A stretch of DNA of 64,000 nt from Cannabis sativa (lineage: Eukaryota > Streptophyta > Magnoliopsida > Rosales > Cannabaceae): positions 68,530,600 to 68,594,599 of the forward strand of contig NC_083602.1 of the NCBI RefSeq assembly GCF_029168945.1. The letters run 5' to 3'. A program made the position numbers and the translations under genes. The first letter of the stretch is position 1. Each line of letters starts with the position of its first letter. The notes under the pieces are model-generated. The model made no database searches. It was not told the DNA's origin and was given only the letters and a program-made list of their open reading frames with translations. This document shows positions 19,001 to 46,400 of the stretch, piece after piece.

Positions 19001-22000
19001 TCTAATAATCCCCATTTCTTGTATCATTCTCTCATCATTTTTCGTTCTTTTCATTTATGTTTTCCTTCATCCCAATTAATGTTGTGATAAACTCAGTTAA
19101 CAACACTCAAACAACAAACTAAAGACAAAGAAAAGGAAATGATACTACATTTCTGCGAGGAGATTTTAATTTTGAATCCCTCCACAATATCCAATATAAA
19201 AAAGACCAAAAAAAAAAAAAAAAAAAAAAACAGAGGATAATAAGTGTAATTGTATATTAGATTGTTGGTAGAGAAATACTTACCAATTTGTTGGTTGGCG
19301 TGTTTTGCTGCTACGTTCTTGAAAGCATTATACCACTTTGGTCTTCCGAAATTGGTTTTAACTGCTGTGTTTGACACAATATCAAGTCCATTATTTTTGG
19401 CGTGATAAAGAGTTTGAAGCATAGAGATAAAAGCAGAGCGAGCATCTCCTTCTTCATAAACACTAGTACAGTAGTTGTGGACCTCAATAACACCATCATT
19501 CCCGTTCTCAGTGATTTCATCCATCACCTCCTTGAACCACTTGAACGACCCTTCATCACGAGTGCTCCAGTAGAAGTAGACTTGTTTCGTGGCAAATGGC
19601 TTTCTCTTCTTCTTTTTATTATTGCAATTATTAATTCCCTTCTCTAAGTCTTTTTCGTCCTCTTTGTATTGCTTCCTGTTATTAAGCACATCTTTTACAA
19701 TGCTCATAAGAGGAGTCACTCCAATTCCACCTCCTATGAGAAGGATAACTTTGTACTGTTTATAGTCTTGCGCTGGCGCACCGTACGCCCCATCGATTAG
19801 GAGCCTTTATCCCAACATAATAGTTTAATTGGAGAAAGAAAGAAGTATTATTAATAATTTGATTGGTAGTCAATGAATGGATGAAAATGTTTTGAAAATA
19901 GCTAAAGTAATACCTTGGAATTTTATTGACTTGCCCATCAACGATACTTTGATTACTAGATATTGGAGGTAAGTTTATATCAGGTAACTGCAATAAATAT
20001 GCAAATGATTAGGAATATTTAAACTTTTGTGAATAGTGTTCAAACACTAAGTTGAAGTGTATGATTTTTTTTTTCTTTTTATACACCTAAAATAAATTGT
20101 GAGCATTTTTCTAAATTCATATGTTGGGCAGAAAATATAAATATTAACCAAGACTTATGAAGGTCAGTTACATGTAGAAAAAGAGGTACTAACTTTTGAG
20201 AAAGTGGAATTGAGCTCTTTTGTCCAGTCACCCAATCCGCGAATATGGACACTCAAGTAATCGTCATCAGGAGCCGAAGTAAGTGAAAAAGGATGCCTAA
20301 TTTTATTAAATTTATAGATTTTAATAACAATACCAATAAATAAGAATATAACTAGGTTTAAATTAATCAAAATACACTAGCTATATATATAGTTACCACT
20401 CAAAAGGAGATATAGCCGAACAATTCAAGTATATGTATTGTCCACTACTGTATTCAAATCCTCTAGGTTTCAGCATTTGCAAGGCTAGAACATTTTCAGG
20501 ATACACTTTAAACTGAACATGTTGAAAACAAGTATTATTTTATTATTATTGCCTTATATAATAATACTACATTTATACAGCCCATAGAAGAGAGAAATCA
20601 GTGAAAGTTACGCACCTTTAGAATTTTCACTGCTTGGAACCCATACCTAAATGCACGAATTGAACGTTCACAGACATACAAAAGGATTGGAACAAGCACA
20701 TACATCCATGTCTACAACAACAATATTATAATTAAAAAATTGAATTGAGATTTTAGATAATTATAAAAGAATATTAAAATAGTTAGATGGTCTTGCAGTT
20801 GGTTGAGATCACTAACTTACAGTCTTTTTGTACCACTTGTCAATGAAGTAGAGATAATAACCGTGAACGAGAAAGAGGACGTAAACAATGACAAACAAGT
20901 GGTGAGAGTACCATAACCTTAGGGCCTTGGGTAGCTTTGATTTATTTTTACGGAACCAGGACTGTGCTAAGGTGAAAGTTATAGCCATTAAGACCACCAT
21001 AACCAAACCGGTCCACCCTTCTGTGCCCTTCAAGAACCACCAGTAGTTGTTGGGTCGTTCTTTCCCAAAGAATTGCGCCATTGGCTGGTATTCCTCATCT
21101 GTTGCATGCAGCAGCCTTGGAAAATCACAAGTTAAATGTGCCAATGCATGTACACCAACTCCAATTGCAATCCCACCAGCGATTACCTAAGATACCAATC
21201 ATAAATATATATATCATGAATTTAAAAGAAATGGGCAACATTGTAGTATAGTAAATCTCACAATATATGTTATACCGTGTGAAACTCAATATTGTCATTG
21301 AAGGGAATGAGTGCTCCCAACTTTGTCTCGGTCCTGATCAAAGTTATGGTATTTCTACAAACAGGTAAGAGAATTAGAGCCATGTTGAACTTGAGAGTCT
21401 CGGCAGCACCCTTAGCAGTGGTAACACAATAGCCCATCACTTCAAACACAGCTCGATTCCTGTACTGAATAAACTTCCACGTAAAAAGGCATGCACAAAT
21501 GGCCAGCCACAACCCCATCACCCAAATACGTCTCCAATTTTCCTCTAAAATCCAATTATGTCTCCGGATGTTGTTTACGAGGTGTTTGACCCGTTTGTGG
21601 TATCGGTTTATGGTGTTGGACTCTACAGTTGTCTCGACTAACTTCTCTTTGACCTTCCTTGAGCTCGGCGCCATGCTTCGATGAAATAGATCTTCCAATT
21701 TCTTCAACTGTTTGAAATATAATTTCATCAATGTTAATTCATGCTAATTTTGGCGGTTTTGCATTTAATTAATTGCAAAATGTAACATGCGTTGTGTGGG
21801 TGTACCTCAATTTTGCCAATTTTGTTGGGGTCTAGTTCTTCCATAATAAGTGTTGCATATTCTTCAGCATGTTCGTAAATGTTAAGTAACTTATTCTCAC
21901 TAGCACTAAACTCAATAATCTACATGACCAATAAAAAAAATCAATTTATGTATGTTAAGGTTATATAAAAATGATTTTAATTTTTTTTTTATATAATAAA

Positions 22001-25000
22001 AATATCTATTTTTGAGATGACTTTTTTTTTTTTTTTTTGATTAAGAGGCCTGTTAGAGCCACAACGAGAACACAAGAGCACAGAACACGGGCAGGGCTGC
22101 AAATAGCAGCAGAAAAAGGAAAACTAACTTAATAAAAAACATAAAACCAGGCATCAAGCCAAACTAAAACTAACAAAACAGAAATCAAAAAAGTCTAAAA
22201 GAAAGAAGCTAATCCAATCGGCCATCCACCAGAGCAGTGGGTGGGAAACCGAAAAAACTGGGCGCATCAAAACTTCCAATCAGTTGGGAGTGAAGAGCCC
22301 TTTGAGCCGCATCATGGGCCACATCGTTGTGAATCCGAGGGATCCAACTGACCTCCCAGAGGTCAAACTTGTGCGTTAAGTTTATGAACTTCATGACTAT
22401 GTCTTTGATGTTGTAATTGAGTGTGTCCAGATCAACGGAGTCCTTTGAGAGAGCAGCAACTGCCCCAGCGGAATCGCATTGAAGGATTAAGTTTTTATGG
22501 CCAAGGGTAGATGCCATTTCAGCTCCCCAGCAAAGAGTGGCACTACAAGAAAATACATTTTCAGCGACTAGATTTTTTGTGACCAAATCAACTTAGTCAC
22601 TAATAGTTAGATTTTGTGACTAATTTGTAGTCGTAAATAATTTTAGTCACGAGACAATGTTTATTTGGAACCAAAAAAATCAATGACCAATTTTTTAGTC
22701 ACTGTTTGTTATATTTAGTGACTAAAATAGTATTTAGTCACTAAAACTGTTGCGCCAAATTATAATAGTGGCGAGACTAATAATTTTTGGTGACTAAAAT
22801 TATTTAGTCATTAAAAATTTAAAATTTGTGACGAAATAGTTAGTCAGTAAAAGTTAATGATCTTTTACAACTAAAATATTAGTCTTAAAATATTTTATTT
22901 TTACAATTATTAATAATTTATATGTACCAAGTAATTATTTAGTTTCTTTAAAATATAAGATTAATTATTACTATATTGAATATACATTAACTACTAATTT
23001 AATCCTTAAAAAAATATGATTAACATAAATTATATTTTTTTAAAAAATATATATATAGTTATTGAATTAGTAGCAAATATATAGTTAAAAAAATTATTTT
23101 TTACTAACAAAATATCATAACAAATAGTGAATTTTACTACTAAAATTTTGATGCAAAATAAATTAATTTGATTTATGATTTTTAAGTTGAATTTATTTTT
23201 AATATTTAATTTTAGTTACTACAACAACAATCCTGGCCCCTCATCAAACTTAACATCCTGTAAATCACAACACTATTATTAATATTATTATTACAATTCT
23301 CTTAGCATCCAGATCACTTGAAAAGAACAGAAGCTTTTTCTGTTTCAGTCAAGTTAAGTTACAATAATAATACTTTGTTAATGTTACAATTTATTAATGA
23401 TAACACTTTTTTTTTAGATGTAATTGCAACAACCCACAAGAGGAGAAGGGAGAGAAACAATTACAAACTTGGAAAAAGAGAGTCAACAAACTCTTTTAAT
23501 GATAACACTTTGTTAATGTTAACTTTTGTATTTTCTTTATTTGAATTGTCACAAATGAAATCTAATGTAATTACTATTTGATAAAATCTTATTATTGGTA
23601 TATTAACCTAAATATTTAATACATGTGTTAAAAATAAAATTGCTTATAGAAGAGTCTCCAGGTTGGCCACCAACTTGCATCACTAACATCAGCGTGCTAC
23701 TGTAATTATGCAGAGGTAGAAACTGTTGAATCCAACATGATAATCCACTTGAATTATTCCACCTTCATCAAGTACTGAAAACAATATCCAAACAGCGATA
23801 ATGAGCACAATAAAGCCAAAACCAATAGACAAAACAATACTACCTTTCATCGTTATCAAAAAATTTCCAAAGTACAAAACATTATTGTTGTACTGTCTCC
23901 CTAATTGAGCCACATTAAGAGTTGGTAATCCTCAGGCTTTTTGTGCTCAAAAAACTCCATTTTAGAACCAAAAGAAATGTTCAACAAAAATCATATGAGA
24001 TAGCTAAAATTATACTCTTAACCAAATGGGATAACTTTCATTTCCAAACACAAAAAAATTTTAAAAAAAAAAAAGTTACACTAAAATGGAATCAACTTCA
24101 TTTATTTCAAATGTCTATCTAGGATTCATATTCATATACTAAAGCTATGATTTTTACAATGAACAATGTTTAGATGATCCAAATTCAAGCTTATGAGCAA
24201 ATAAAGTACCTCATTGATAGCAAGAACTTGTCCATTGGTCTTCTTCACCTTCATTAACTTCCTCAGAAAATACCTAAGCAGAAACTAAAAACAAATCACT
24301 TACCCAAATCAAATAACTCCAAAAACCCTAAAGATCATAATAAAAAAAAAACATTGGCTTACCAAAACTTGGACTTGGCACGGACTTCATTGGTGGCCCA
24401 AAGCTTCATCTTGTAAATCTTAGGATGGTCATTTGACTCAGTAGGGAGAGCCCTTCCCACAACCTGGTACTGATGAAACCTGAAAGTCACCATTTCTGAG
24501 AAAGACTAACCTAAACACTAGTATCAATAAGAACCCATCAAATAAATCTGAACCAAAACCAAAAGAATATGAACATAAATAAAAAATTCCTAATATAAAG
24601 ACTCATCTAAGCTTTTATCGACTCATCTAAGCTTTTAGTAATTTTAACAGACTCATCTTTTGATATAACCTGCAAAATACAACTGATTTAGTTTACTCAA
24701 GAGAAAAACAAGGTAATTGGCTAAACAGAGAAATCTATTGTCACATAATGCAGCTACTTACCCCTGTCCCACTACAAGGAGCATCCAATAACACTCTATC
24801 AACAAATAACGTTGATACCCAAAACTTTAGGTAGCTGGAAGAAAATGAAAAAGAGGCGAAGCAAACAGAAGGTGTTATAATTGAATTTTAATCACATTGA
24901 CTCCAGCACAACATGATTTTGTGATGATTAGACATGAAATAAAAAAAGGATTTTCAGAATAACATTAATTTCTGTGAATTAAATGAGTACAATCTGCAGA

Positions 25001-26152
25001 ATATAGAAAAGAATCCAGCAGTTCTCAATGTCAACAATTAGACAGAATAAAATAGAAAGTGAATTAAAAAAAATACAAAGACAAAAATCTAACCTCCTTT
25101 CCATCATAGTTGCAGACCACAGTATTGGTCACACCCATGCGATTCAGATTTGCAGTGAGTGACTTGAGCCTTGGCACCTTCATCTCATTTGCAAAAATCA
25201 TTCCTGATAAATTTATGACAGAGTACTTGAGATAAAGAGGAACCACGATAATTGGAATCTTCCGCAACTTAGAAATAATAATAATAAAAAAAAAAGCATA
25301 AGAGCACTTCAAGCAAAGAGAGCAAAATATAGGATACTAAGTAGAGAAACAGAAGCAAAAAATGTTCACTTTTTGGCAGTGTAACCAATCTATTCTAGTT
25401 TAGTTTTATACAATGCAATATAGAAAAGAATCCAGCAGTTCTCAATGTCAACAATTAGACAGAATAAAATAGAAAGTGAATTAAAAAAAATACAAAGACA
25501 AAAATCTAACCTCCTTTCCATCATAAATAAGTGCGAGACCACAGTATTGGTCACACCCATGCGATTCAGATTTGCACCATCACTTGATCTTTTAATCAAT
25601 CCACTGATACAAAAGAGAGGAAAAATACAACAAAATATATATTAGCATACTATAATGGTGTCTGCTTATGAAGGAACAAACCCAATAACTCGAATAAAAC
25701 TGCCTCATACCTGCGGTGCGAATTTGCCATATTTGTCTGGTCCTAGAGAATCAATCCAATAGATGAGACTAAAATATATTCTTTGAGAAAATTATTAAGT
25801 TAATATTGCATTCTTCATCTCCCTTTGTCCCTCAACTGAAAATTGGAATGAAAAACCTGAAACAAAACAACAAAAAAGCCTATTTCACTCTCAATCAACG
25901 TCCAATGTAGAAAACACCAATTATATACATTAAAATTCACACTACTAATCCACTCAATAAGCACAAAAATTGTGTTTTGGTTAGAACAATCTGATCAATC
26001 ACAGCCATCCAGACTCCATACCAAAAAAAAAAACTCTAAATGTCATCATGCGAACAATATCCCCTGTTTATACATACGAATTTCTCATACCAGTCATACA
26101 TATATGCTAAATTTTAGGACAACATTACAAGACAAATTAATCACATAACTGA

Positions 26153-26183
<31 letters not shown>

Positions 26184-28385
26184 CGTTATTGTGATCTGAA
26201 AAAGCGCAGGCAGTGACAAAAATAAGCTGAGACTAAAGATTCAAAATATGATCAAATAATGACAGAAAAAAGTCAAAATAAACTTTAAGCCAGAATTCAA
26301 GTCGCAATGAAAAGTAGCATACCCTTCTACTTTCATCCATATCAGCCTTGTTTCCTACCAGGATCTTTTTGACATTATCCCCATGCTGTTCGATGTTGCG
26401 AATCCAATTCGTAATATCTGAATTAATTAAAAGGCAGTGTTAGTGCATAAAACCATACAAGAAACAAGAGGCTAATTAACAATAATTTATAAATATTAAC
26501 TTTAACTTATCTGAAAAATAAAACACGTATAGTAACAAACATTAAGTGAAAGATTTAAAATAAAATAAAGATATTAATTTAAATTTAAATTCATAACAGA
26601 TTGCACTAATCTAGGGTAAAAAAAGCATTTATTTAACAAAAATTTGAAATAAATATTTCAAAATTTAAAATTTAAATTTTGATTTTTTAACAGTACGGTA
26701 TCTTTATATCTTTATATATACTATATATACACAAATTATCTTCAATTAATTTTTTTTCTTTACTTTGTTCGCTTTCACTTTAATTTTTCTTAACGCAAAC
26801 AAATCTTAATTGGCCTGAACAAATCTGAAGAGCAAATCAGGGTCATATTTGTTAAGGTATGAGCTAAATTAAATTTATGATGGCTTTACAATCTTGTATT
26901 GACTGGTTGTTAATTAAAAACTCTTCAGGTGTTTCAACTGGTTAGGGATTTGAAAGAAGATAGAAGGAGTCGGTACATCCAACCAGGTTTGAAAAAATTT
27001 CTATCCTATTTCACTAAAACAATATGCATTGTAACTAACTAGGAAATATATTAACATGGATTAATCATCTTCGTTTTTGGATGCATATAGTTGTTTTTTC
27101 TTTGGCTATCAACAGAGACAAACAAAAATACAACTTCAAACCTAAGAAAGAATTAGATATCCAACTACTTAGAACAAGGCATTTAATAGTCGTATCACCA
27201 GCCAACCAAACTAAAAAGTATATAAACCCTCAAAACATTAGTAAAATTACACATACACAGTAAACATTCAAAGCTCTCCCAAAAAAGAAGTAGCCCGTAA
27301 TTGAAAATTCCGCACATTCCATACAATATTAGGAAACTACCTTCTGACGCTGTAAAGCCTTCAAAGGAGATAAAGCCCACTTATACAGAGGATCATGTAT
27401 AAAAACCTGCAGAAATTTCTCACATGAGATTTCAAATTAACAAAAAGAAAAGAATTTTTTTTTTTTTTTGAAAATGACTATTAATTACTAATGCAACTAC
27501 GTTCGGTAACATACTTCAACAATGGTCAGCAGTGCTTCTTTATTTGTCCTCATAACAGAGAGTGTTTCCTCGCAACATCTTCTAAAAACTCCTTCGACTC
27601 CACTTACACCCATGCCATCAATAATGTCCCTTGTCAACCTGAAAGGAACCTGGAAAAACAAGATAGCCCAGAGAGCCATGTTTTCTGTAAGTTTAAATTT
27701 TAATTATAAAGGGGTTATTTTCATCTGTGATCTCCATTCTTTCACTTATTTTACACACAGGCATAACAGAGAGATATAGGTGCACGATTTCAGATTTTAA
27801 ATAGGCTTTTCTAGAGAGATTAAATAGGCTTAAAAATGATTATCTTAAATCGGAATCATATATTCAAACAAGGTCAAACAATTAAAAGTCATCATGAATC
27901 CTGAAAAATTTTAGTGATACAAAAATAAACAAAAATCGTCATCCTTTCTTTTAAAAATTCCTCCCTTACCTAGGTGGCTGCTGGATGGGCGCACCTGGAT
28001 AGTACCAGGACCCTTGTGCCCCGGCCCTTGATCAGATAAAGCTGCCCGCCCTATGACCCACAACTAAAAATGAGCCTTGCGACGAGACGCGGACACTCCC
28101 CATGCTGCGGTTCCCTCCGGTCCGTTCCCGGGTTGGGTTAGGGGAACATCCGAGCGATTGCCTTCGCGGATCCAAACGCGCCCCTCGAATGTGTTCGGGC
28201 GACCGCTCTCGTTCCGTGTACTTCTTGAGCTGCCACGGACGTCGGAGAATCGGAATACAGCGACAACGGGAGGGACAAATTCGAACAGATCGAGACGAGA
28301 AGGAGGGAAAGAGTGACGGCAATTTTTTAGGGTTAGGTTTTCATGAATGAGAAAGAGTTTATGATGGTGGTGTTATCTGTTGTAT

Positions 28386-28440
<55 letters not shown>

Positions 28441-31400
28441 TAATTTGGAAAGATATATAATAGGAAACTATTTAAACAAAATAATAATAATGAGACTAGA
28501 AATATGATAATTAAATATATTTTTTAAAAAAAAAATAAAAAATTTCTCTAAATACTATTTTTTTTTAATTTTATTTCATTGAATACTATATGGGTTTCTA
28601 TGTAAATAAAATTATACCATCTTTGGGCCCATGTTTTCATAAATTAGAATTTTATATAAAAAATTATAATAATTTTAGTTTTACTCCTATAAAATTAATT
28701 TTTTGTATTAATTTTAATGTATTATATTGGGTACCTTTATATTTGTTAAAAAATAGTGTGAAATTTTCATTTATTTTTTTATTTATATGAGCAATATTTT
28801 TTAAAAATTAATAAATAAAATTATTTTTCTTTCAATTTATTTCTTTGTTCGCAAAGTATTCTACCTTATTATATCTTAATAATCAATTTGACATTATACT
28901 TGTTAGTTAGGTTTATAAATTTTTATTATTTATCTAACAACAATAAACCATCGATAAAATTCTATTTTGAAAACATAAACATTTCGAAAACTTAAAATAT
29001 TATCATAAAATTATCATTGTATGTTATATATTTAAGAGTACTTATATTTACACATGTTTAATAATTATTATTTTTATTGTGTAGAAATAATAATGGATAA
29101 AAGTTGGATATGGTCTAATAACAAATTATCAGAAGAATATACCAACGGGGTTAGTACTTTTATTAACCTCGCACGTAGTCGCTTGAATGATGAGAATAAA
29201 ACTCCTTGTCCTTGTACCGATTGTGTGAACTTCTACTATCACGAATTAGAAACAGTAGAGCGACACTTATGGGTCAATGGTTTTTCTAAATCTTATACAA
29301 ACTGGGTATATCACGGGGAGGACGAAACTGCTTCAAGCTTCAATATTGATGATTTAGAGTCAGACATAAATGAAGACAACGAAGATTCTGAGGAGGAGGA
29401 TGATGAAATGTTTGACGTTATTGAAGATATTACTGGAGGAGTAAATTTTGAAACTAATCAAAATGATGAAATTGGAGGGGAGGAAACTTATTACAATGAA
29501 CCTACAAATTTTAAAGAATTATTTGACGAAGTAGAGAAAGAATTATATCCAGGGTGTTCACAATTTTCTTCTTTAACATTTTTGGTGAAAATGATGCATA
29601 TCAAGGTGCTTAATAAAATGAGTGACAAATGTTTCGATATGATACTTGAATTACTTTGTCAAGCTTTTCCGACTGATCATAAGCTGCCAAAGTCTCATTA
29701 CGAAGCTAAGCGAATGTTACGCACTCTTGGATTGGGTTATGAGACAATTCATGTATGTAAAAATGATTGTACTCTATTTTGGAAAGAATATAAAGATGCT
29801 ACAGAATGCCCTACTTGTGGATTTTCAAGGTACAAACATAAAGGAAAGAAGAAAAAGAATGTACCGGTGAAAAAAATGCATTACTTTCCAATTACTCCAC
29901 GTCTACAAAGACTTTTTATGTCACGACATACGTCAGATGAAATGAGGTGGCACAAAGAAAAGCGTGTAAATACTGAAGGTGTACTTAGACATCCTGCAGA
30001 TGGAGAAGCTTGGAAAGAATTCGATAAACAATTTCCAGAATTTGCAAAAGACCCCAGAAATGTCAGATTGGGACTTGCAACCGATGGATTTAATCCATTT
30101 GGAAACATGAGCACAAGCTATAGCATATGGCCTGTTGTATTAGTGCCTTATAACATGCCCCCCTGGAAATGTATGAAAGAAAATAATTTCATAATGGCAT
30201 TATTAACTCCTGGTCCCAACTCTCCAGGTAAAGACATTGATGTTTACTTACGACCCCTAATTGATGAGCTAAAACAATTATGGGAGGAAGGGGTAACAAC
30301 ATATGATGTATCAAATAAAAAAGAATTTATAATGCGTGCTGCAATATTGTGGACGATAAATGATTTTCCAGCTTATGGTACAATATCTGGATGGAGCACA
30401 AAAGGTTACAAGGCATGTCCTGTTTGTAATGTGGATGCTTTGTCGTTTCCCATATTAAGTAAAATTAGTTATATGGGGCATCGTCGTTTTTTGCCATTAG
30501 ATCATCCATGGCGAAAAGATAAACGCTACGATGGTAAAATTGAAAGTCGTCCTCCTCCTAAAATATTATCAGAGGAAGATATCTTAAAACAATTGGAAAC
30601 AGTTGATCAGTTCATTCCAGGAAAAATACCTAAAGACGATAATGGAAAATTGTTAGAAGAAGTCGTGCAAAGGAGAAAAAGATTAAAGGTTGATGTGAAT
30701 GGTGGAAAAACCCAAAAGAATAAACCTATTTGGAGTCGAAAATGTATTTTTTGGGAGTTAGAATACTGGTCAAAATTAAAGTTGAGACACAATTTAGATG
30801 TGATGCATATTGAAAAGAATATTTGTGAAAGTATCTACGGTACAATGTTATGCATAGATAAGAAGTCAAAGGATACTGAAAAGGCCAGACTTGACTTACA
30901 AAGGATGAACCTACGCAAAGAATTACACTTGAAGAAACAAGGAGATAAATGGTTTAAACCACAAGCATGTTACACATTGCCATTAGTTGACCGGAGAAAA
31001 TTTTGTACGTGGTTAGGGTCGGTCAAATTTCCAGATGGGTATGCCGCAAACATTTCAAGGAATGTCAATATAAGTGAAGGTAAAATTATTGGCTTAAAAA
31101 GTCACGATTGCCATGTTTTGCTGCAAAGATTATTACCAGTTGGGTTGCGACCATATGTGAAAAAGGATGTGATACTTGCCATTTCCGAGCTCTCATTATT
31201 TTTTCGAAAGTTGTGCGCAAAAACATTATACGTTGAAGACTTGGATTCACTAGAGAAAGGAATTGTAAAGTGCTTATGTAAACTTGAATCCATTTTTCCT
31301 CCAGCGTTTTTTGATGTCATGATCCACTTAGCAGTGCACTTACCTTCAGAGGCAAAGTTAGGTGGTCCGGTACATACAAGATGGATGTATCCTATTGAAA

Positions 31401-34400
31401 GGTAAAATACTAATTATTTTTTAAAATAAAATTTTATCCATCTTATTTTAAAAATTAAGAATATTTTTCTAATGATGAATTTTAATTTTTTAGGTTCTTA
31501 GGTTCTCTAAAAAATTTAGTTAAGAATAGAGCACGATCAGAAGGTTCAATTGCTGTAGGATATGTTGGTAAGGAGGCCTTAACTTTTTGTTCGATGTATC
31601 TTCACGGGATTGAAACAAAATTCAATCGTCCAGAGCGTAATTGGGATCTCAGTGAGGTACAAAATGAATCAACGTTGTCTGTTTTTGATCAACCTACAAG
31701 GTTATTTGGTGGAAGGGAATTTCGCAATTTAGAACCTAATGAGTATAACAAGCTGCACTGGTACATTTTAAATAATTGTCCGGAGTTACAACCTTACATC
31801 GAGTAAGATTTATAATTATCGTATAAATTTTAGTTTTTATACATTTTGCACAAATATTTATATCATCTTTTTCTTATTAAATAGCGAGCACAAAGCTTTA
31901 TTACAATCTAAAGGCGTAGTAGACATCATTCGAACTCAAGAGTTGGAATTTTCATTTTGGTTCAAAGAAAAAGTAAGTATTTTTTTTACAACTGCGTTAA
32001 GTATAGTTTCTACTAAAAGCTAATAGTTATAATACTTTTACAGATAAATGAAAAATATAAATTGTCTCCTCATCAAATTACAAAATCAGTCTTAGCTCTT
32101 GCAAGTATGCCAGATCATCGAATCTTCTCGTATAATGGATGTATAGTTAATGGCGTGCGCTATCATACTGAAATTTGGGACGTCGGACGAACCACTCAAA
32201 ATTACGGTGTTTGGGTTGAAGGTGAACATGGTGGCAGTACGTGTGACTTTTATGGTGTCATAACAGATATTTTAGAAGTATCATATATATATGATCATAA
32301 AGTGGTACTTTTTCAATGTGACTGGTATGATACTGATACCAAAAAGAAAAGAACACACCAAGAATACCATATCACAAGTATAAATGTCAGCTCAAAATGG
32401 TATAAGGAAGAACCTTATATTCTTGCCGACCAAGCAAATCAGGTATTATATTTGGAAGATGATAAGTTTGGTTCGAAATGGAGAGTGGTTGATAAGGTGA
32501 ATCAACGCCACTTATGGGACGTTCCAGAAGTAATACTTGAAAGTGTAGATGCAGAAGAAGATGGTTCCAATAGTTATACAGAAGCTTATCAAGAAGAGAG
32601 ATCAAATGATATTGACATAACATTTGATGAGTCAAACGTCGAAATTCCTCTTAACCATCCAAATGCAGAATTGATAGAAATTAACTCATCACATATTAAT
32701 TTTGAAATAATTAATTGTGATCAAATTTTGAATGAAAGTAATGTAAGGGAAAGCGATGATGATATATCAGATTCCGAGACTGATATAGGGGATATTGATA
32801 AGAAATTACAACATTCTGAATGTTCATCTACAGATGAAAGTGATGACAGTTTATAAGTAATTTTATATTATTGCATAGTTTTTTTTATATTAATTTTTAT
32901 TTATTTAATTTAGTACCACTTCAAATTTATTAGTTATTTGGAATTTTATAGGAACATGGGACCGAAAAAAAAAGCAATTGATATCCCTAATAAAACCCGA
33001 TCAACGCGAAATATTTCAGAACAATCATCTGAGATTCCCATTACTACTCCGTCTTTACCAGTTTCAAGAGTTAATTATTCCACTACAACACAACCAACAG
33101 AGAGTACTCAAAATGAACAAGAGGATTTAGAATCTACTGGTATGCTTTTTTTTATATAATTATTATTATTAATTAATTTGTAAATTAATAAATTTGTATT
33201 AATATATCTTTATCAAATATTTCTCTGAGACATTTTGTATTTATTTTTATAGCCCCAACCAAGAAAAGAACTCGTGGCCAAAATAGAAGTAAAGGCACAA
33301 GTAAAGTAGTTGCGGATACAAAAAGTAAGTTGCCAGTAACAGCTAGAAAGGGAGAACTTCACCCGGTAGGAGACAATGCTTCAAAATTAGCATCAGAAAT
33401 TGGTTTTATAGTAAGAAATCATGCACCTCTTAAATATAAAGGGTGGAAGAATGTCCCACCAGAGGATAAGGCACTTATTCATACTCGTATTAAGGTTACT
33501 TAACTTATTCAAAAATAATTTTTTTTCTACATAATTCTTTTTATTATTTCTTTTACATAACATTTATCTTTCAATACATATTGAAATTATTTTAATCTAT
33601 TTATGTAGGACAAATTCAAAATTGATCCGAAGGAAGAAAGACACATGCATGACGTCATTGAACGACATTGTTCAAATCGTTACAAAAATTATAGAAACCA
33701 ACTTCATGCTCATTATAAAGATGTTGTCAAAGAAGGAAAGGATCCACTGGCTAATCGACCTTTAAATCATAGAATGACGGACCAAGATTGGCACTGGCTG
33801 TGTGACAATATCTTTGGTAATCCTAACTGGCAGGTATAATTTATACTTTCTATATGTTTATTAATGATATAGTATTAACATCATATGATGTCATTTATTT
33901 TTACTTTATTTAGAAACGTTCGGTTGCGGCAGCTAAAAATAAAGCTAAAGTACCATATAATCATCGAGGCGGATCAAAATCTTTTATTCAACATCGAACA
34001 AAAGGAGTAAGAGTATTTACATAAGAATAATAATGTTTTTTTTTTTTAAAAAAAAAGTTATACTAACAATTTTTTTGTTAAATAGTCTTTAGTTAATGAT
34101 GTTGGAGAAATTGAGCTATTTAGGAACACCCACTGGAATGCAGAAAATGGTTGGTGTAATGAGGAAGCAAGAACACGATATGTATGTCTTAACTTGTTAT
34201 ATTCTTTCAAAATAAATTGTTTAATTTTCCTCTAAAATTATTCGTTTTAAAAATACAGGATCGAATGGTTGAGTTAAGACGACAACGTCAAGAGAATAAT
34301 GAGGAAATACTGGAAGATGAAATCCGTGCTGAGGTTTTGGGTAGTGAAAGATGTGGTCATATACCTGGATTAGGACCTGCCCTTAACAAAAAAAACTCAA

Positions 34401-37400
34401 ACCACCAAGTTGAAAAAGTAATTGAAGATCGTGTTGCAAACATGCGAGAAGAAATGCGTAATGAGATACGACATGAGGTGCGAGATGAGATTCTTCAAGA
34501 GGTAAGAAATGAACGCCAAGATTTTTTACAACAACTCAAAGATATTATGAACATACCCAACAATCATCCTATTTTTGGCATCCAACAACCACCGCCTCCA
34601 CCACCACCACCTCCACCATCTCCACCATCGTTTGGACCACCTCGTGTTGATACTACCTCTGTTCCATCACCACCACCTGCTGCTAGGGACTGTTCTTCTC
34701 CACAATCACCAACAACCGCCAGGGCATCTGGTCCACCAGCACCGTCTCCGGTTACTTCGGATAAGGTATTTTTCACTTGAGTTTTAAAACAATTATAATT
34801 CTACTTAGTGACTTGTCATATCTCACTTACTTAATTTTCATATTATAATACAAGCTTGTTTATTGTTTGGTTTGCAAATAAAGACAATTGAGTGCAGTTT
34901 GCACGTGATTGATCCTAACATCAAAGGAAATGGCCTAGTTGCATTTGGGTATCTCAAATTAGAAAAATCGGATGAGAAAGGTGAGATCACGGTACATGGA
35001 GAAAAGAAGAAGCATTGTGACTTTAAACGTGTCTTCATAGAAAAGGTTGTTGAAGAAAATGCCGATCTGCCATGCCCTCTAAAGCAAGAAGGCTTCTTCA
35101 AAGTGGGTTCAGCTGTGAAACATTTCGTCTTCTGGCCGAAGAAACTAATAAATATGCCTTCAGCTTGTTCACTCCAGGTAAACTATAATTAGCCTTAATG
35201 TTGAAAAATCTTAATTTTTCACATTAAAGTGTTTCTTTTTTTTTTGGTTGTAGGTGAAAGGAAAGATGAAAGCTACCCAAGATCCTCTGGCTCCGCCTAC
35301 TCAGCCACTGATACACTTGAAGAGGCCAGAGATGTTTCATGAATCACACTACACTCCACCTGAAAAGACATTGTTGTTGACGACACTTTTAGGGATTGTT
35401 CAGAAATGGCATCAGAAGAAAACAGTACAACATGAGCTTAAACAAGAATTGTTCGGACCTGGCCATGAGTGTTGGATCGACAAGGAAGATGTCATAGATG
35501 TGTGCGAGCTGAGATGGATCGGAACTAATGTCATGACTATTTGGTGCAGGTATAGTGGTTAATATTTAAGTTAATAATTATATTTGTAAATTTTTACTAA
35601 TAAAATTTTATGATTCAGTTATTTGCAGGAACATTCACTTAATATCAGTGGTTTGAATAATACATATGCATTTTTAAATCCTGCTTTAGTATCCTCAATA
35701 TCTTATAAAGATCCCAATAGACGTACACAGAATCTCATTGAGCGGTTGAAGGAAATACAACCCGATCAATGGTTGATTTGTCCCTGGAATCATGCGTAAG
35801 TAGATTTATAATTTAATATATGTAAATATAGATCGATCAGGGGGTTCACTAAACTTTTTTAATTATGTGCAGTAGTCAACACTGGGTAGTGATAATCATC
35901 CAGGCTGCTACTCAGTCAGTGGCATTCATTGACCCAAAGAATAAGCCAATTGAAAATGAAATTAGAAATTGTGTCACAACGTAAGTCATCATTTTTTTTT
36001 TCTTTAATTTAACTTTTCTTACTAATTCTTTCACTAATTAACTTCTCTTTGGTGTAGTGCTTTGGAAACCTACATGACCCAGCAAAATATACGAAAAAGG
36101 GCTGAGATAAAGATCAGGCAGTACAGGTGTCGAGGACAACCGGACGATCAACAGTGTTGATATTACTGCATGAAGATTATCAAAAGCTTCATGACTCAGT
36201 ACAATCCTGCAACTTTTTTGAAGGATAAGGTATTTAGACATACATGATTCATTTGATAAAGTTTTTATTTAAAATAAATTCAATTTCAATGTTATCTATC
36301 TCTGGTTGTACAGTTCAAAGATGACAAGCCTTACAACAACCAGGAGATAAACGAAATACGAGATGAATGGGCCGATTTTGTGAAGTCTTATATATTAATG
36401 GAATGAGTGCACAGTTCTTTATACGTGTAGGGTATATAATTTTATATGACCACTACTTTTGGCTGTACTTAGTTTTTGTTATGGCGAGCAGAATACAATT
36501 TTTATGATCGTTACTTTTGGTTATATTAGATTTACTTTATAGTTATATTAATTTTTTGTAGCAGTGAGTACTACAATAAATTTTTATTTATTATTATATT
36601 TATTTAGCTGTACTTTTTTTTTTTAACTTTTATTAATAATTTTTAATAATAAGGTTTTTTAAGTATGAATCAAACTTAATAATAAAATTTATTAGTTCAA
36701 ATGAGTTGACAAGATGGCATTGAATTATATATTTTATCTATTATATCTTTATATATTAAAAGTGCCTATCTAACGGCATTTCTTGGTTTAACAGAATATA
36801 CTTAAAAATAAAAAGAATATTCTGTTAAATTTAACGATTAGGTTTGATCTCCCGTTAATAAATAAACCCAATAATTAAACCCAAAAAATCAAAACTTCCT
36901 ATTCTCACCAAAACAATTCAGTAATATTTTTATATCAGTTAATTTATTGTTAAAATTGTCAATACTCTACTAATAAATGCTATATTTTCTTAATTTTGCT
37001 TGTACACGCGTTGCAACAAATTATTATTTCATAAATATATTTTTTTTCCTTAAAAATGAACACAGAGTAATGATGTTGAACCTAATAACTAATAATATAT
37101 ATTTTTTTAATTTTTAATTATATCACTTTTTAATAACGTAGAAAAAAAAACTAACATAAAATTTAGTATACGTGCCTCGCACGTAACTTTTTACTAGTTT
37201 GCTTATATATGTATGGACAATATATAAATATTAATTTATTTTTTTGGATATATTAATGTTAGTTTAATATATTATTTTTAATATAATATGAAAATATTTT
37301 TATTAAAATATTAACCAATGTATAAAGATAACAAATAATTATATTCTTTGTTTTTTTAAAACATATAATTATTTATTATTAAAAACAAACTGCTACTAAA

Positions 37401-40400
37401 TAAATTTGCTAAAATATTTTTTTTGGAGGTAAACTCCAAATTTTCCCTCTACATTTTCATTTGCCTTACAGTTACATTTTCATTTTCCTGGTTCCCATCC
37501 TTGATTTTGTTCCTCAGAAGCGACCAACTGCGGCTCAATTATGCAGGCCCTCGTCTCTTGGAACCATCTATTACTATTACCTCTGATGGAAATCAAGCTG
37601 AAGGTAGTGCCATCGTTGATGATAAGAAAAGGGAAAATGATGACAGAGAGGCATCGTTGATGATAAGGTAGTGCCTGGTTAACGTGTTTTATTATTGAAG
37701 AAAAATCCTGAACATTTTCTTGGACGGTTTATGATGAGTCTCATACAATCTAGTTTAGCTGCAATTTTTATTTTTTAGAAAAGACCTTACTGTGACAAAC
37801 CTTTACTTTGTATTAGCTTTGGGAATCAACCAAAAAGTCATGTGTCTTGTGTAAATCTCTTGGTAACCTTTCATTTATTATTTTCTTTGTTAGTTTATAG
37901 CACTTTTAAGGGTATTTGTTGAAAATCGTACATCATTTAAACCAAACTAACCAATAAGATATTATTTATTTAGTCGAGAAGGGACCTAATCCATAGCTTG
38001 AATGATCCCAAAAAACATTTTAAATTTTTTTATCCGAATGATTTTATCAGAGTATTTGTTTAATACTTGTTTCTTACCTTTTCTCATATTCAGATTGGTT
38101 TGCAAGGAGAGCATTTAGGCATTTACAAGGCAGATGGTATTAATAAAGTAAATTGGGTTGCTACCTCGGAACCACCAAAGATGCAACCTTTAACATGGTA
38201 CAAGGTAAATACTGGGATCTGGGGAACATTATGGTTTTCGTATTACAGAGGCTGATTGTTTCAGTTGTATTATTACTTTCTTTTTATGCTGTTGAAATTA
38301 AGAAAAACAAAGTACTCACTCGGACTCGGAGTATTGCAGGCTGAAATAAACCCTCCACCAGGGAAAGAACCTGTGGGGCTGGATATGGTTCATATGGGAA
38401 AAGGTCTAGCTTGGTTGAATGGGGAAGAAATTGGAAGGTACTGGCCAAGGAAGAGTTCTATAGATGATGGATGTGTTAAAGAATGTGATTACCGAGGAAA
38501 GTTCATGCCCAACAAATGCTTTACGGGTTGTGGAGAACCAACTCAAAGATGGTAAGACTAAGTCAATAAATATACTCAAAGATGTTTCCCTTTCATTTCT
38601 TTGCTGCCAAGGCTGAGTAGCGTAGACATTTGGATCTTCAGTAGTCACTATCATATAAGTATATCTAATTTTGTTTTTCAGTAAATGAGAGTGTATGTGA
38701 GTGGTCTTGAGTATTTGGTAAATATATCTCATGAAAAAACAAACAGTACAATGTAGCACAAAATAAAAATAAGGTGCTTGGGTTTGATCTGAGGAAACTT
38801 ATAGAGTGAGCTTAATACTTAATAGCTCGAAGGTTTACTTTCTCTTTTACCAAGATTAAATAACCACTGAAACAATTTGTCAGTTGAGGCTAGCTCAACT
38901 GGTTATGATTTAGCTTTCAGAAAAGGCTAGTATTTACTATGTCCAGAAGTTTATAAGCCATCTATCAAACTTGCAAAAGCAAGCAGGAATGCACAGGCGC
39001 TCTGCATGCACACTTTTAATGTATTGCCTAGTATATAGTTATTGTTATTTCAAAACCAAATTTGAAGTTTTATAGACTCTTGGTGCCTGGCTGTGGTGTA
39101 CTCGTTCTCTGTTATGGTTACTAATGTGAAGATATACTCTTAAATTCTTAATGGTAAACGATTGTGATAGCATAGTGGGTGTTAGCACTTTTTTTGTTTC
39201 TTTATTTCATCTTGTAAGATCAAATGTTTTAAGATTTAATAAGTAATTACTGCATTGTTAAAGAACCTTACAAGGCAGCAATGTTTCTCGAACAGGTACC
39301 ATGTGCCCCGTTCTTGGTTCAAGTCATCTGGAAACATTCTGGTGATCTTTGAGGAGAAAGGAGGAGATCCATCAAAGATTACTTTGTCAAGGCGGAAAGT
39401 AACTGGCCTCTGTGCTCTTGTTGCAGAGGATCATCCTTCTATTAGACCTGAAGCTTGGGAGAAAGAAGACAGTGGAAGTAACAGAAATGTTCCAACTGTC
39501 CACTTGCAATGTCCTGAGAATACCCTTGTATCTGCTGTAAAATTTGCTAGCTTTGGAACTCCTTCAGGAAACTGTGGATCTTATACCAAGGGAGATTGCC
39601 ATGATCCTAATTCCATTTTAGTGGTTGAAAAGGTAAGGACTGCATCAATTCCTTTTCTATATATTTTAAGCAGTGTGAATAGTGGAATTCTAGAATCCCT
39701 TTCACTGAAAGTACAATAAATATACAATTAAGGTGATTACATTTACAAATGCACCTAGAGTTTCAGAACATAATGCCACAAAATAAGAATACTTGCATAC
39801 ACTTCAATATATGGAAACTCTGTTGTGGTGGCCTCAGTGGTTAAAAACTTCACCCTCTTATAGTTGAAACATCATTGTATTTTATGAATCTTGGGCGTGC
39901 TTTAGTTTGTTAATTATAAAATGTTTTAATCGGTTGTGCTATGTATTATTTTGTATACTTATGGCCTATTTTGGGAGATATAGTTAAATTTTCAGAGCAA
40001 CTTTTTTGGTGTTCATTTCATGTTTGGCAGCTTGGAAGGAAGAAGACCAACACCAGTGAGACTCATTTGAACTCAGGTAGCGGGATTAACCACTCTGGGT
40101 TAAAAAGGCGTCAGAAAGTTCTTTCAGTAGTATTTCTGGTACGTTGTTATATTGTTTCTTTCTGCAACATGTTTTTTCAGTGTTATCATAAATGTTTTTT
40201 CTTGTAGTGCAAGCTGCATGATTGGTATGTTTTCCTTTAATTAGATATTGAGGATTTTCACTGGGCTGTGAGGCCACTGGCAAATGCTTTTGGTTTGTTT
40301 GCAGCCATGAAATTTAGCTTATTTCTCGGATGAGGTGTGAGCTTAAAACTGAGGAAGGAGCAGAAAAAGCTGACTAGATCCAATGATATTACATTTCTTC

Positions 40401-43400
40401 AAATAAATATAAAACTTGATTGCTATATAATCCTACTGCACTTGTTTAAAACGTAAGCAAAGAATAGATTTTTTTTTTTAATTATTTCTTTTAAAAGATT
40501 TCAGATATCTCAATCAATTTCATTGCTACTAACTTAATTGTTTAATAGGTTATCTAACATTGAGTAATGGGGGTTTTCTTTTTCTGTTAAAACTTTGTCT
40601 GATCACATTTTGATAAAGTTTTTTGTCACTAACTTTATAACATTTTGATCGAACTTCTTTAAGGTCCTGGCTTACATGTTAAATTTATTTATTTGTTTTG
40701 TCCTTGCTGTCAAGTGTCAACCAGTGTATAATTTGATCTGAATGATGCCATTGTGTTTTGTTTTCTCAGACATGCTGTTCAGCTTATATCTCCTGCTAGC
40801 ATTGTTGCAAAAATGAATGGTCAGGACAGTATCTGCAAGGTATCAATAATTTGGGACCCAGTCATTATTACAATGAAGTGGTTAAACCTTATTGTTTTCT
40901 ATGATTTCATGCTTATATTTGCACGATCTGCAGGCGGATCTCGAGGAAGTCACCTCATTGTATCATGACAGATGTATAATTATGAAGAAGGGTGGGTACT
41001 GGGTAGCTGTTTTTGTGGTTGTTTCAATTTAATAATCTCTCTGCCTCTTACAATCTAAAATCTAATTGCTCCTACCAAAATATGTCTGCACATAAACATG
41101 ACTACATTTTTGGTGAAATTTTTCTGGTGTTTTCTTCTTTTCTTTTGATGGGTTTCATTTGATCATGACCAGGCTGATGGGCAAAGTTGCATCTGATAAA
41201 TGTCACAAATGGGTCTTCAAAGAACCAACTGAATGTGAACCTAATATCTCCAACTACTGGCAAAGCTCTTTTGATGTTGTATGTTCTTATAATTACTTAA
41301 ACTTAGTAAATTGAGTATTACTTCTGCTTTTATTATTCTGTTTTAGGTAAGACGGTGTTTTATTAGCAATATCTGGTTCTGACTCCAATAATTGATGTTA
41401 TTGATTGCAGCTGCCCACTGAATGGACTGATCAGTTTGAGTCAGGGATTCAGGTCAGTACAGAGGAAAATTATGTTACTTACTACAGATTAAACTGTAAA
41501 TCATGTACTATCATATCTGATTTACTTACTACTGATTCGAAATTCTCAAGTACTCATATTATAATAATTATAAGTACTCATATAAGCATGAAATATTAAG
41601 AAATATTAAGAAATATTATAATCATGTACTAGTTTCTCTCATTTCATATAATTATAAGTACTCATATTTTTTCTTTTTTCTTTTGTAACAAGGTTGCAGG
41701 AAGCGTGATATTAGTTTCAATCATGAGAACTGGTCACATTACTATGAAAGATACATATACATTGCATTGCTTCTTGTATATGAAAGATACATATTCATAT
41801 ATGAAGATGAATTCTTTGCTTTGTTGATGCTTGTTCTTGAGACTCATAGCTTACGGACTACAGGTTAATCTATATTTTCGTTCCGGTTATATATATATTT
41901 TTCCTATTTATTTGCTGCAAAATGTTGAATTATTTTTGAAATCGGAGTTGTAATTTTGTTTTGGATTGCTACAAAGTTATGAGAAAATGAGTTATTCTCG
42001 TTTTGATGAATATGCACATAGGGTATTGTTGTGGGGCTTGATAATTTGGATGGTGTAATTCCTATAATAATAAGAGAATCTTCAAGCAATGCAGTTGCAA
42101 CATCTGGTCTAAAAAATGGTAAGCTTTCCATGCTCTTACATTTCATATAAATAAGTTGGGTAAATTAATTTAAGAGAATTATTGATGGCTTTCCCTTAAT
42201 TTCCCTTAATTTTGTCATCAAGAGTTTGATAATATAGGTTGATATAGTAGTGACTTTATGTTGATATAGTAGTGACTTAGCCAACTCATTTAACACATCA
42301 ACTGCTTGATCATCATCCTGCTGAGACACAATGAGTTTTGGAAGGACAACAGGAACCATTCTCGTGACAAGTTTTTCAGTTTCAACACCTAGAACTGCTT
42401 CAAATCTCTTAGTCATTGTTTGCAAGGACTTTATACTTAAATGTAATTCTTTGCAGAGGAAAAAGTTAATCAATGAAAGTGAATCCTTAAAGGAGCAAAT
42501 TTCAAAATTAGAGGAACTTTTGTGAAGCAAGTAGAATATGTTAGAGGTATATATTTACTATTCAAGCAATAAATAAATTTTGCCGCACTAATTAGTTTTG
42601 TTTCTTAACTTTGCAGGCATATCATGAAGTATTATCTTTAAGTATTATTTGGTGATAGCGTTAAGTGTAGTTCACTTTTAAGGTATATAAGAACTTTTTC
42701 ATCTGCTAAACCAGACATATACATCAAAATAGAAGCATCAAAGTAGGGGGCATATATGCTTTTTTATTTTAGAACCCTCTGTTCTGTATTAATTTACTGA
42801 TTTTTCAGGTGAGATTTTATAGTACTGTTATATTATGTTTAACTTCTCTCACTGCTGTAGATCTCTCTCTGTTGCAAGATAATGTAGAGTGGAACTTTCA
42901 CTGCTGTAGATCTCTCTCTGGAGGACAGAAATCCCGTGTTGTCTTCACATCAATATCCATGTCAAAACCCCACATTTTGCTGTTGGATGAACCCACAAAT
43001 CACTTGGATATGCAGAGTATTGATGCTCTAGCTGACGCACTTGATGAATTTACTGGTGGAGTTGTGCTGGTCAGTCATGATTCTAGGCTGATATCACGTG
43101 TGTGCGAGGACGAAGAGAAGAGTGAAATTTGGGTGGTCGAAGATGGTACTGTACGGAACTTTCCAGGCACGTTTAAGGAATACAAGGAAGATCTACAGAG
43201 AGAAATTAAAGCTGAGGTCGATGATTGACGATGTAAAGGTGAAAATATTTGTTATTTGCTCTGTCTACATGTTGAAATTTTGCAGGGGTATGCTTTCTCT
43301 CTATACAGAGAATAAACATGGTCTTTGTCCTACTCTTACATATACGTCTTTCAATATTATTTATATGAGTGTATGATTAGTTTGTTTCCGGAACTAATAA

Positions 43401-46400
43401 AGTATAAATTTTCATTTAAAATTGTAGTGATAGTTATGTATTGCTGCTGATTTTAATAATTTTCCTATAATTCTTTCACAGATCATGCCTACAGATGCTC
43501 AAAGGATGCTTTAAGAGTTTGAGGGGTGTGTGCTTCTAGCTTTTGAGTTGGAGCCAGATCAAGACAGAGGCTTCACATTCTTTTTTATGTTTGTTTGCCT
43601 AATTTAGTGTTAGTTTTTTTTGTTCATTTAGTTTGGTTTGAATTGGGGGTAACTTTTTTCTGTTTTCCATGTTGGCAACTCTGATTCATGGAGTTTGTTG
43701 TTGTAGTTCACAGACAATACAATTCAAGCAAGGACTATGTAATTGAATTTTTTATGATTGCTATTGTAATTTTTATGTAATGAATAAATGTGTTCAATAT
43801 TATTTAAATATAGCTTTTTGAATAATTTGTTTTTATTATATAATTTAAATGAATATATTTTAAATTAAAAAATAATAATTAATTTTTATGACTAAATATT
43901 AGTCACTGAATAATTAATTTATGTAATTCTTTATTTATTATTGCCAACTAAACTATTTAGTCATAAAATATTAGGTTTTTCGTGACTAAATTTTAGTTGT
44001 TAAAGTTTACTTTTTTGGTTGTTGAAAGTGCATATTGGTATTTATGTGACCAATACATCAATCTTACTGTGACTAACTTTAATATATTTTGTAACTAAAT
44101 TTTAGTCATAGAAAATAACATTATTTGTGACTAAATATATTAGTCACTAAATCTCTTCTACGACCGACATTCAGCGACTAAATGGTGACTAAAAATAATT
44201 AGTCACAAAAAATTTTAGGTGACTAATTAATGAGTTTTAATGACCAAAAAACTAGTCGGGGAAAATGGGTTTTTTTGTAGTGTGGCTAACTCCCCAGCTA
44301 GCGGTTCGCAGTATTGAATGCGGGAAGTGTGAATACTAGTAATCTCCCCTCTGTCATTTCTGAATATAGTTGCACCTACCGAGTGTGTTTGGCCAATTGC
44401 CACATCTGTGTTGCATATGTGCCATCCCTCAGGGGGGGGGGCAGCCATTGTGACATTGCAGCATCACCATTTTGATGGGATTGGAGGGCCTCCAGGAGCC
44501 GGTTATCAACAAGCTGAGTAATGGTCCTTATGGGGGTGCCGTGATCATGGTGGATCACCATGTTTCTCTCCTTCCAAATCTTCTCGAAGATTAATGCAGC
44601 ACCCTCAAGGAAAGCATGGAAACTAAGATCATTTGGTCTGTTAGCAGTGTTTTTGAATCCAATTAACCATTCCTCCCAATTGGAGAAACTGAAGGAGTCC
44701 GTCCTTATGCTCCAATAACAGCCAAACCATATAGATCGAGCCATAGGGCATTCCCAAAAAATATGAAACGAGTCTTCAACGACCTTGGAGCACAAAGGGC
44801 AATAGGGGTCAATTAATCCAGTAAAAAGTTGGAGTTTACCTCTCGTCAGCAAACAATTTGAAAGGATTTTCCACCAGAGCATTTTTGGTCTAGAATGCAT
44901 CTTAGCTCCCCAGATTATCCTCCATTTTTCATTATTGCTATCTCCATGATCAAGGTTCTTGATAGTACGATAGGCTGATCGGATGGAGAATTTTCCATTG
45001 CTTTCTGGTGTCCAAAGCCAGGAATCCTCCAAAGGATGGTTCGGAATGGTGATGTTCATGATTCTTCTTGCATCATCTTCTTGGAACCATTGGAGGAGAA
45101 GATCTTCGTTCCAAGAATTATTAAGTATAAAGTTGGAGACAAGGCTGATACCGTGAGTTGCGTCAAGTTTTGGTCGAGGCTGAAGGGTGCCTAAGGGAAC
45201 CCACGGGTGAAACCAGATGGAGGTTGATTCCCCATTTCCAATTTTCCTGCAAACGCCTTTTTGGAGATGAGTCCTAGCTTTGAGGATAGCCTTCCAAATT
45301 AAGGAGTCAGAAGGTTGAACTTCAAGATCTAGGAAGTTGTTATGCTTGAGATACTTAGCTCCCATTACTTGCTTCCAAAGGCTTGAGTCATCTGTTAGCG
45401 CCTTCCAAGCCCACTTTGTAAGGAAAGCTTGGTTAGTTGCCTCCGTTGTTCTGAATCCCAGGCCACCAAACGATTTTGGTTTGCAAAGTTTCTCCCAAGC
45501 AACACAATGTAGGACTCGCTTTTCTTCCGTATCTCCCCACCAAAAGTCTCTAAGGGCTTTGTCAATTCTATTGGCAGTGGATATGGGGATGACATCTGAG
45601 GATGCTACATAGTTGGATAAAGTGGAGCCTACGGATTTGATGAGGCAGGCTCTTCCCGCACTGGATAGAAGTTTGGCTTTCCACCCCTTGATACGCGACA
45701 GGACACGGTCTACCAAGTGATTGTAGTTATCCGTTCTTCTTGAGTTGGTGAATAAAGGCAGTCCCAAATAGGTAGCCTTCTCATTCATTTTCTTCATTCC
45801 CAGAATTTCAGTAACTTCCTGGCTCCGCCCCCGAGGCACCCCCTTGGAGAAAAAGACCGAAGATTTCTGGAGGCTAATTGATTGACCAGACCAACCACAG
45901 TAAGTGGCTAAGCATTCCTTGAAGGCCTTGGCTTCTTTAGTGGTGGCTTGACCAAAAAGCATTATATCATCAGCAAACATGAGATGGTGAATGAACGGTC
46001 CCTGACGGCCAATCTTGATGCCTTTTATTTGACCTTTCCTTTCCTTATCCTGAAGAAGACGGGAGAGAGTTTCAGCCGCAAGGATAAATAGAGAGGGGGA
46101 TAGCGGATCACCTTGTCGAAGACCTCGCTCTGGTTTAACTTTACCCGCTATGGATCCATTTAGAAGGAGCTTTATTTCATGTAACGATATGCAGGCTCGG
46201 ATCCATCCGAGGAAAGGATTTATGAAACCCATATTCGACAGAACTAGAAGAATGAAATCCCAGTCCATTTTTTCGTAGGCTTTCTCAAGGTCAAGTTTGA
46301 TCATCATGAAGCCTCTATTACCTCTTCTTCTTTTCATGGAGTGGACTATCTCTCTAGAAATCATAGAGTTTCCCGCTATGTTCCTTCCTTTAATAAAAGC

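Follow-up and report, generated by a model that had tools for sequence, protein, structure and literature searches.

The window analysed here is a 64,000-nucleotide stretch of Cannabis sativa DNA (C2:68530600-68594599 of a 770.7-Mb assembly, the only assembly used; C-numbers denote its contigs), and it holds a complete CACTA element of 21,742 bp (22541-44282) seated inside a long interspersed nuclear element (LINE). The left end, CACTACAAGAAAATA, starts at 22541, and the right end, ...TTTTTTTGTAGTG, closes at 44282; the terminal inverted repeats read CACTACAA at both ends, with the first mismatch at position 9, and are flanked by a target site duplication, TGG (22538-22540 and 44283-44285). 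Joining of the flanks by script with a single TGG restored an unbroken 169-aa RNase-H-like frame of the split LINE, which bears out the ends and the duplication proposed in a preliminary description made from the letters alone. The left LINE flank gave an RVT_3 match (8e-9). LINE-like frames of 973, 270 and 585 aa on the minus strand (22209-22540 and 44376-50185) are split by the CACTA, and the long ones were recognised by eye.

The left terminal region (22541-23205, plus strand; 40 scored copies in the assembly) consists of the CACTA end and subterminal TTAGTCAC/GTGACTAA repeats, and the right one (43468-44282, plus strand) of subterminal repeats and the CACTA end. All 15 element copies of this 8-mer fall within the terminal 660 and 482 bp; one further copy lies elsewhere in the window. 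Genome searches were performed with the left end and the right end, each with 40 of 95 candidates scored and 40 matched. Counted by hand from the listed matches, at least 28 same-strand end pairs, the window included, are spaced 3.3-27 kb apart, and the 27 further pairs mean that the pair in the window is not a chance one. Copies joined by the same ends are referred to below as sisters (C5, C7, C10, C6_17k, C2_15k, C9_5k, C10_5k, C3 and others). Whole-element comparison, cargo included, covered 10 of the 28 end pairs and, in part, the unpaired copy C3:28776335. Seven of nine sisters are flanked by an exact 3-bp repeat; C2_15k has a 4-bp one (AAGG), and C6_17k has none, with both end bases altered. 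The private length of sisters was dropped as a measure of cargo length, because retrotransposon frames (named by eye) add to the length of the C5 and C10 sisters. No RNA family was matched at gathering scores in 20001-48000.

Two genes of its own are carried by the element, both on the plus strand. The TNPD transposase gene (29093-32856) has four exons (29093-31401, 31494-31802, 31885-31972 and 32044-32856) and encodes 1172 aa with no stop and with Transpos_assoc, Transposase_21 (PF02992, 2.5e-101), DUF4218 and DUF4216 domains; the intact transposase of the preliminary description is thus upheld. The second gene (32956-36406, 12 modelled exons) combines a TnpA-like Transposase_24 (profile match to PF03004, 3.1e-10) with an Ulp1 Peptidase_C48, and its model has an in-frame stop at codon 775 of 829; of three sisters in which exon 11 was read, two have it open and one has it stopped as well. 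Ends, 3-bp duplication, TNPD, TnpA-like gene and subterminal repeats, by which the CACTA (DTC) superfamily is recognised, are all present. The window copy has host gene pieces between its ends, as Pack-CACTA elements do, but these are defined by having no transposase gene and the TNPD at 29093-32856 is open. The earlier suggestion of an autonomous carrier stands in one part: a transposase-bearing element does carry the cargo, while its autonomy, as judged from the letters, is to be regarded as unproven in spite of the intact TNPD, due to the stop in the second gene.

A genome search with TNPD exon 1 gave 61 matches (58 of 2541 candidates scored). Among the matches listed there are six copies of at least 98% identity, the next group being at 63%, and exon 1 is free of stops in two of the six, the window and C6:42697692. 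TNPD is interrupted by stops in all three sisters where it was read (C7, C6_17k and C10), and no purifying signal on TNPD was seen between sisters (synonymous:nonsynonymous 4:13, 6:11 and 6:16). It should be added that at C6:42675645-42729388 four left ends lie on one strand within 25 kb (42.705-42.729 Mb), with one right end 30 kb from the nearest, and that a copy in this region has a stop-free TNPD exon 1 and second-gene exon 6 some 12 kb apart; nested or tandem insertions are a possible origin of the cluster.

The remainder of the element is largely a patchwork. To the left of TNPD lie, in order, an RPL18A (eL20) fragment (23812-24503, minus strand) with exons 1-3 and intron 1 precisely missing (donor gene C7:60056455, 95%); a 58-bp piece (24501-24558) identical to C1:28077447 (100%), with C10:51210057 matching 24501-24594 at 88%; a 28-nt filler (24595-24622) that repeats, by eye, about 18 nt of the start of the following piece; a fragment of a NOP2-type methyltransferase (24623-25423, minus strand; donor C6:11079075); a second NOP2 copy (25417-25576, minus strand); a piece termed P3 (25572-26246; locus C2:90183876, 1.35% substitutions); a RAB8/RABE GTPase exon with an intron (26245-26476, minus strand; donor gene C2:65932459, 94%); and an ATM kinase fragment (27263-27754, minus strand; donor C3:48002213, 95%). 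The GC-rich island of the preliminary description (0.52-0.64 G+C, 27951-28300) proved to be a patchwork that includes matches to two distant loci and the leader of the element: within 27936-28182, positions 27936-27990 match C18:358219 (98%, 55 bp) and 28083-28174 match C7:46959371 (100%, 92 bp), after which the leader follows.

This leader is on the plus strand and is cut into three parts, 26474-27265 (with matches of about 71-74% elsewhere, of which several lie some 5 kb away from TNPD copies belonging to the 63% family), 27748-27935 and 28183-28440, the last with a TTA microsatellite. The block of RABE plus leader adjoins all six listed TNPD copies of at least 98%, RABE being partial in C6_17k; a copy at C2:67568030 has the RABE piece (96%) and no TNPD among the matches listed. 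An older, decayed relative on C9 keeps, in order, RABE (51840517), the leader (51853219), TNPD remnants (51869417-51871453) and second-gene remnants (51874323-51874795), and its RABE has two derived changes in common with the window lineage. C9:51846759 was considered as a host donor of 26474-27075 and rejected, since it represents the leader in this relative.

The right-hand cargo comprises a beta-galactosidase fragment with introns (37676-39813, plus strand; C4:58425576, 98%); an older family piece (39810-40388) found at 97-98% in four other elements and at 99% in the C5 sister; a piece matching C6:22234415 (40387-40638, 97%); a RuvB-like 1 fragment (40651-40964, plus strand; C4:51744162, 98%); a piece (40968-41551) matching C5:2743419 (99%), perhaps itself a chimeric copy, or C1:34397136 (95%); a 127-bp piece (42275-42401, minus strand; C10:17673182, 100%); and an ABCF1 fragment (42917-43427, plus strand; C1:38902028, 97%). 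The matching loci on this side are based on coordinates and identity, and some may themselves be copies. The 127-bp piece reads like plant ATR, although its comparison gave no match; the joint presence of ATM, this possible ATR piece and RuvB-like 1 in one element is probably a coincidence. Peptides of 40968-41551, 37500-37680 and 41700-41830 matched no Pfam family.

The seven gene identities were checked against solved structures and Pfam, and all genes named in the preliminary description were confirmed, with best structure matches to eL20 (2e-34), NOP2 (6.4e-16, with a query that ran across a frame break), Rab8A (1.8e-6), ATM (6.3e-28), RuvB-like 1 (4.7e-14), ABCF1 (3.3e-36) and beta-galactosidase (4.5e-18). 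Beyond the part captured, the donor genes of RPL18A, RABE and ATM go on into more exons that encode the same protein, as does that of NOP2 more weakly (below the Pfam cut-off). Introns are kept in the NOP2, ATM, RABE and beta-galactosidase pieces. Altogether, 14 pieces have matching loci at 94-100% identity on eight or nine contigs (E-values for named loci from 0 to 4.4e-18), more than the seven genes first named, and the placed loci cover about 7.1 kb of the 21.7 kb (12 intervals, the 58-bp piece left out). Since these loci are spread over separate contigs, the cargo does not derive from one segmental capture, and in the loci searched the parental genes were nowhere found adjacent in the same order. 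Sisters carry pieces of other genes, namely of histone deacetylase (PF00850, 6.4e-36) and EXS (PF03124, 2.2e-25) in a 5.6-kb one (L025, C9:52342700-52348750) and of a permease (PF00860, 1.1e-6) in C2_15k, so that gene collecting is a habit of the family. The 5.6-kb sisters C9_5k and C10_5k look like Pack-CACTA members.

With the parental loci located, as the preliminary description had advised, divergence could be measured for five pieces. Substitutions against the donor amount to 9/225 (4.0%) in RABE, 21/669 (3.1%) in RPL18A, 11/739 (1.5%) in NOP2, 9/668 (1.35%) in P3 and 6/476 (1.26%) in ATM, and among the window and five sisters these pieces are held by six (one in part), five, three, two and one element, respectively. 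Both rankings agree (exact one-sided probability 1/120), and the older two captures differ from the younger three (Fisher P 0.0012). The pieces were therefore captured serially, in the order RABE, RPL18A, NOP2, P3 and ATM.

The sites of the younger events are preserved in the sisters. All five sisters read have CTTAGAA at the site that is filled in the window by about 482 bp of ATM; the ATM piece stands in place of these 7 bp, with no target duplication around the insert. In an event common to the window and the C5 lineage, 70 bp still present in C7, which read by eye like another RABE exon, are gone; their place is taken by 160 bp of NOP2 and, next to it, about 670 bp of C2:90183876. This second NOP2 copy has the two changes by which the element's own NOP2 piece differs from the donor gene, and it then joins C2:90183876; it was thus copied locally before synthesis moved to another locus. 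At the six junctions with both sources in hand, microhomologies of 3, 4, 5, 2, 3 and 0 nt were counted. Their sum of 17 compares with a mean of 4.8 for random joins of the same sequences and was reached in 10 of 20,000 random sets; for the five junctions other than the blunt one the random mean is 4.0 (P 0.00015). Not among the six are the junction with the 28-nt filler and the 1-nt join inside RPL18A, which was treated as intron removal; the right-hand junctions, those of the GC-island pieces and the outer ones of RPL18A and RABE likewise fall outside the count.

Internal replacement, microhomology and local copying together are read as repair synthesis with template switching. We propose, with a probability of about three in four, that a CACTA of the transposase-bearing lineage took up host DNA in separate events, while already complete, by template-switching gap repair. 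Each event would start from a break or gap within the element, arising probably at about the time of excision or replication; synthesis during repair would leave the element's own template and prime on other loci, mostly through microhomologies of 2-5 nt; tens to thousands of bases would be copied before the return to the element. Newer pieces would overwrite parts of older ones, and pieces would also pass between sister elements by recombination. The ends with their duplication, the matching loci, the pre-capture ATM sites in sisters, the order of the five events, the microhomology excess and the combination of local and distant templating in one event are observed. We only infer the break, the moment at which it fell with respect to transposition, the polymerase involved and any present mobility of the element.

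Several observations weigh against this proposal or narrow it. The divergence intervals of NOP2, P3 and ATM overlap, and the C6_17k sister has a deletion (23410-26328) which makes it uninformative for RPL18A, NOP2 and P3 in the count of holders. The 1.26% between ATM and its donor exceeds the 3/669 (about 0.45%) by which P3 differs between the window and its nearest sister; a differing donor allele, error-prone synthesis or passage via another element may account for the excess. The right NOP2 junction is blunt (0 nt), as kept in the C7 sister, and the left one contains the 28-nt filler rather than a direct overlap. Furthermore, a 6.5-kb sister on C10 shares 40387-43480, save about 100 bp, at 99% identity. 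The captures in this stretch may thus have taken place outside a transposase-bearing copy, elements also exchange pieces with one another, and a sister lacking a transposase may have gathered part of the right-hand cargo.

The RPL18A piece raises the question of the template. In the C7, C10 and C3 sisters it begins 10 bp ahead of the start codon and reaches beyond the stop. C7 and C10 (L009, C7:22124900-22134899; L018, C10:37664700-37674699) have an open 178-codon frame and preserve the splice sites of introns 2 and 3; in C3 the frame has one stop, and in the window, exons 1-3 only are kept. All five element copies listed lack intron 1, exon 1 running straight into exon 2 at the precise splice junction and the protein match starting at residue 1, and the three longer copies still contain introns 2 and 3. 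The two host RPL18A genes listed show no such fusion, their exon-2 match beginning at residue 3 or 4. Comparison of the captured copies with the host gene gave synonymous:nonsynonymous ratios of 8:6 and 9:4, and changes of 14/522 and 13/522 in exons 2-4 and of 25/926 and 25/924 in non-coding parts; these figures give no need for selection on the captured gene.

In its simplest reading, this precise join in a single gene would reflect a partly spliced RNA template, RPL18A at least having been captured from such a transcript or its complementary DNA. The 1-nt microhomology at the join agrees with that, but the case stands alone, NOP2, ATM, RABE and beta-galactosidase having kept introns, and exon 1 measures 25 bp only, so that a template jump landing there by chance, or an intron-less paralogue since lost, could explain it as well. 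We therefore consider the RNA route possible, though rather doubtful, and the compound statement, that the transposase-bearing lineage collects serially by template switching and at least once, for RPL18A, copied a partly spliced transcript, rather unlikely. If it were true, a cut-and-paste DNA transposon could take up complete host genes through RNA-templated repair.

Captures could alternatively have occurred in non-autonomous sisters alone and have been passed to the transposase-bearing copy by ectopic recombination or gene conversion. The 99% match of 40387-43480 to the 6.5-kb sister would fit, as would the mosaic of terminal regions and several blocks among the ten elements and the RABE piece at C2:67568030, the copy with no listed TNPD. 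Nevertheless, where whole elements were read, the left-hand pieces RPL18A through P3 are found in TNPD-bearing copies and in C5, which lost TNPD by deletion, and the ATM piece, among the matches listed, only in the window copy and at the host locus. Shuffling as the only process is hence improbable.

Enclosure between neighbouring insertions is the model given for Pack-CACTA (Catoni et al. 2019, as described in the accessible part of the review PMC13317346): two related copies land close to each other, and aberrant excision yields a hybrid that encloses the DNA between them. The four left ends on C6 show that clustering of copies occurs in this family. However, the pieces of ATM, of P3/NOP2 and of the GC island replace internal stretches of an already complete element and have no element ends around them, which enclosure does not predict, and an enclosure of flanks does not suit the patches of 55 and 92 bp whose matches lie on distant contigs. 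As a general explanation the model is distinctly improbable here; for the largest pieces, such as beta-galactosidase, it may still hold. An assembly artefact or chance matches can practically be dismissed, as the left-hand junctions recur in up to five sisters at about 99% and the E-values of the locus matches are low.

The way in which cut-and-paste transposons acquire genes is a long-standing question, for which enclosure between neighbouring copies and gap repair have been proposed in print. In soybean, Tgm-Express1 is a comparable multi-locus element. Captured gene fragments up- or downstream of the transposase gene are described, in the accessible text, for Cactavine families of grapevine (PMC2528002) and Chenopodium CACTAs (PMC8978399, citing Rubin and Levy for the capture mechanism), which also resemble the window copy in a Transposase_21 gene accompanied by Ulp1/Peptidase_C48. 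They differ in having, as far as that text goes, one or two captured genes per element, against 14 pieces with intermediates in sisters here. Among maize Pack-TYPE elements, Pack-CACTAs hold most loci according to the portion available of PMC8903248; several distinct loci in one element are thus a common trait, but Pack-TYPE elements are defined as non-autonomous while the window copy keeps an open TNPD. Accordingly, multi-locus Pack-CACTAs and CACTAs combining Ulp1 with captured fragments were known from these three sources.

The closest described mechanism is that of the gap-filling/FoSTeST Pack-TIRs of animals (PMC8277862, in the available excerpt), where a small internal stretch is replaced by filler with a parent elsewhere, and microhomology of 1-36 bp (median 2) was present at one breakpoint or more in 190 (67.6%) cases. 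Those are animal elements, plants being named by the authors as worth exploring, and here we deal with a plant, serial events and pre-capture sisters. Maize Ds2 and Ds-l4 (PMC3260210, likewise in excerpt) have gene-derived filler with introns from other chromosomes; unlike the window copy, they belong to the hAT superfamily and are non-autonomous. The literature searched, which mostly did not include subscription papers, contained no account of a CACTA that has an open TNPD, about a dozen donors and preserved intermediates. As donor loci and pre- and post-capture sites are preserved for consecutive events, the proposals become testable junction by junction. The data suggest that cargo is collected by the transposase-bearing lineage of a family as well as by its non-autonomous offspring, and that such an element can take a complete coding gene along.

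Elsewhere in the window, degenerate 6-, 12- and 18-bp repeats of the ACCCAGACCC/CTAAACC type, resembling decayed telomere-like repeats, occupy 2600-7400. Copia-like frames (14389-17560) and, on the minus strand, frames resembling a respiratory burst oxidase (RBOH) gene (19093-21743) were recognised by eye, as were plus-strand frames resembling a PIF/Harbinger transposase and its Myb-like partner (51577-54278).

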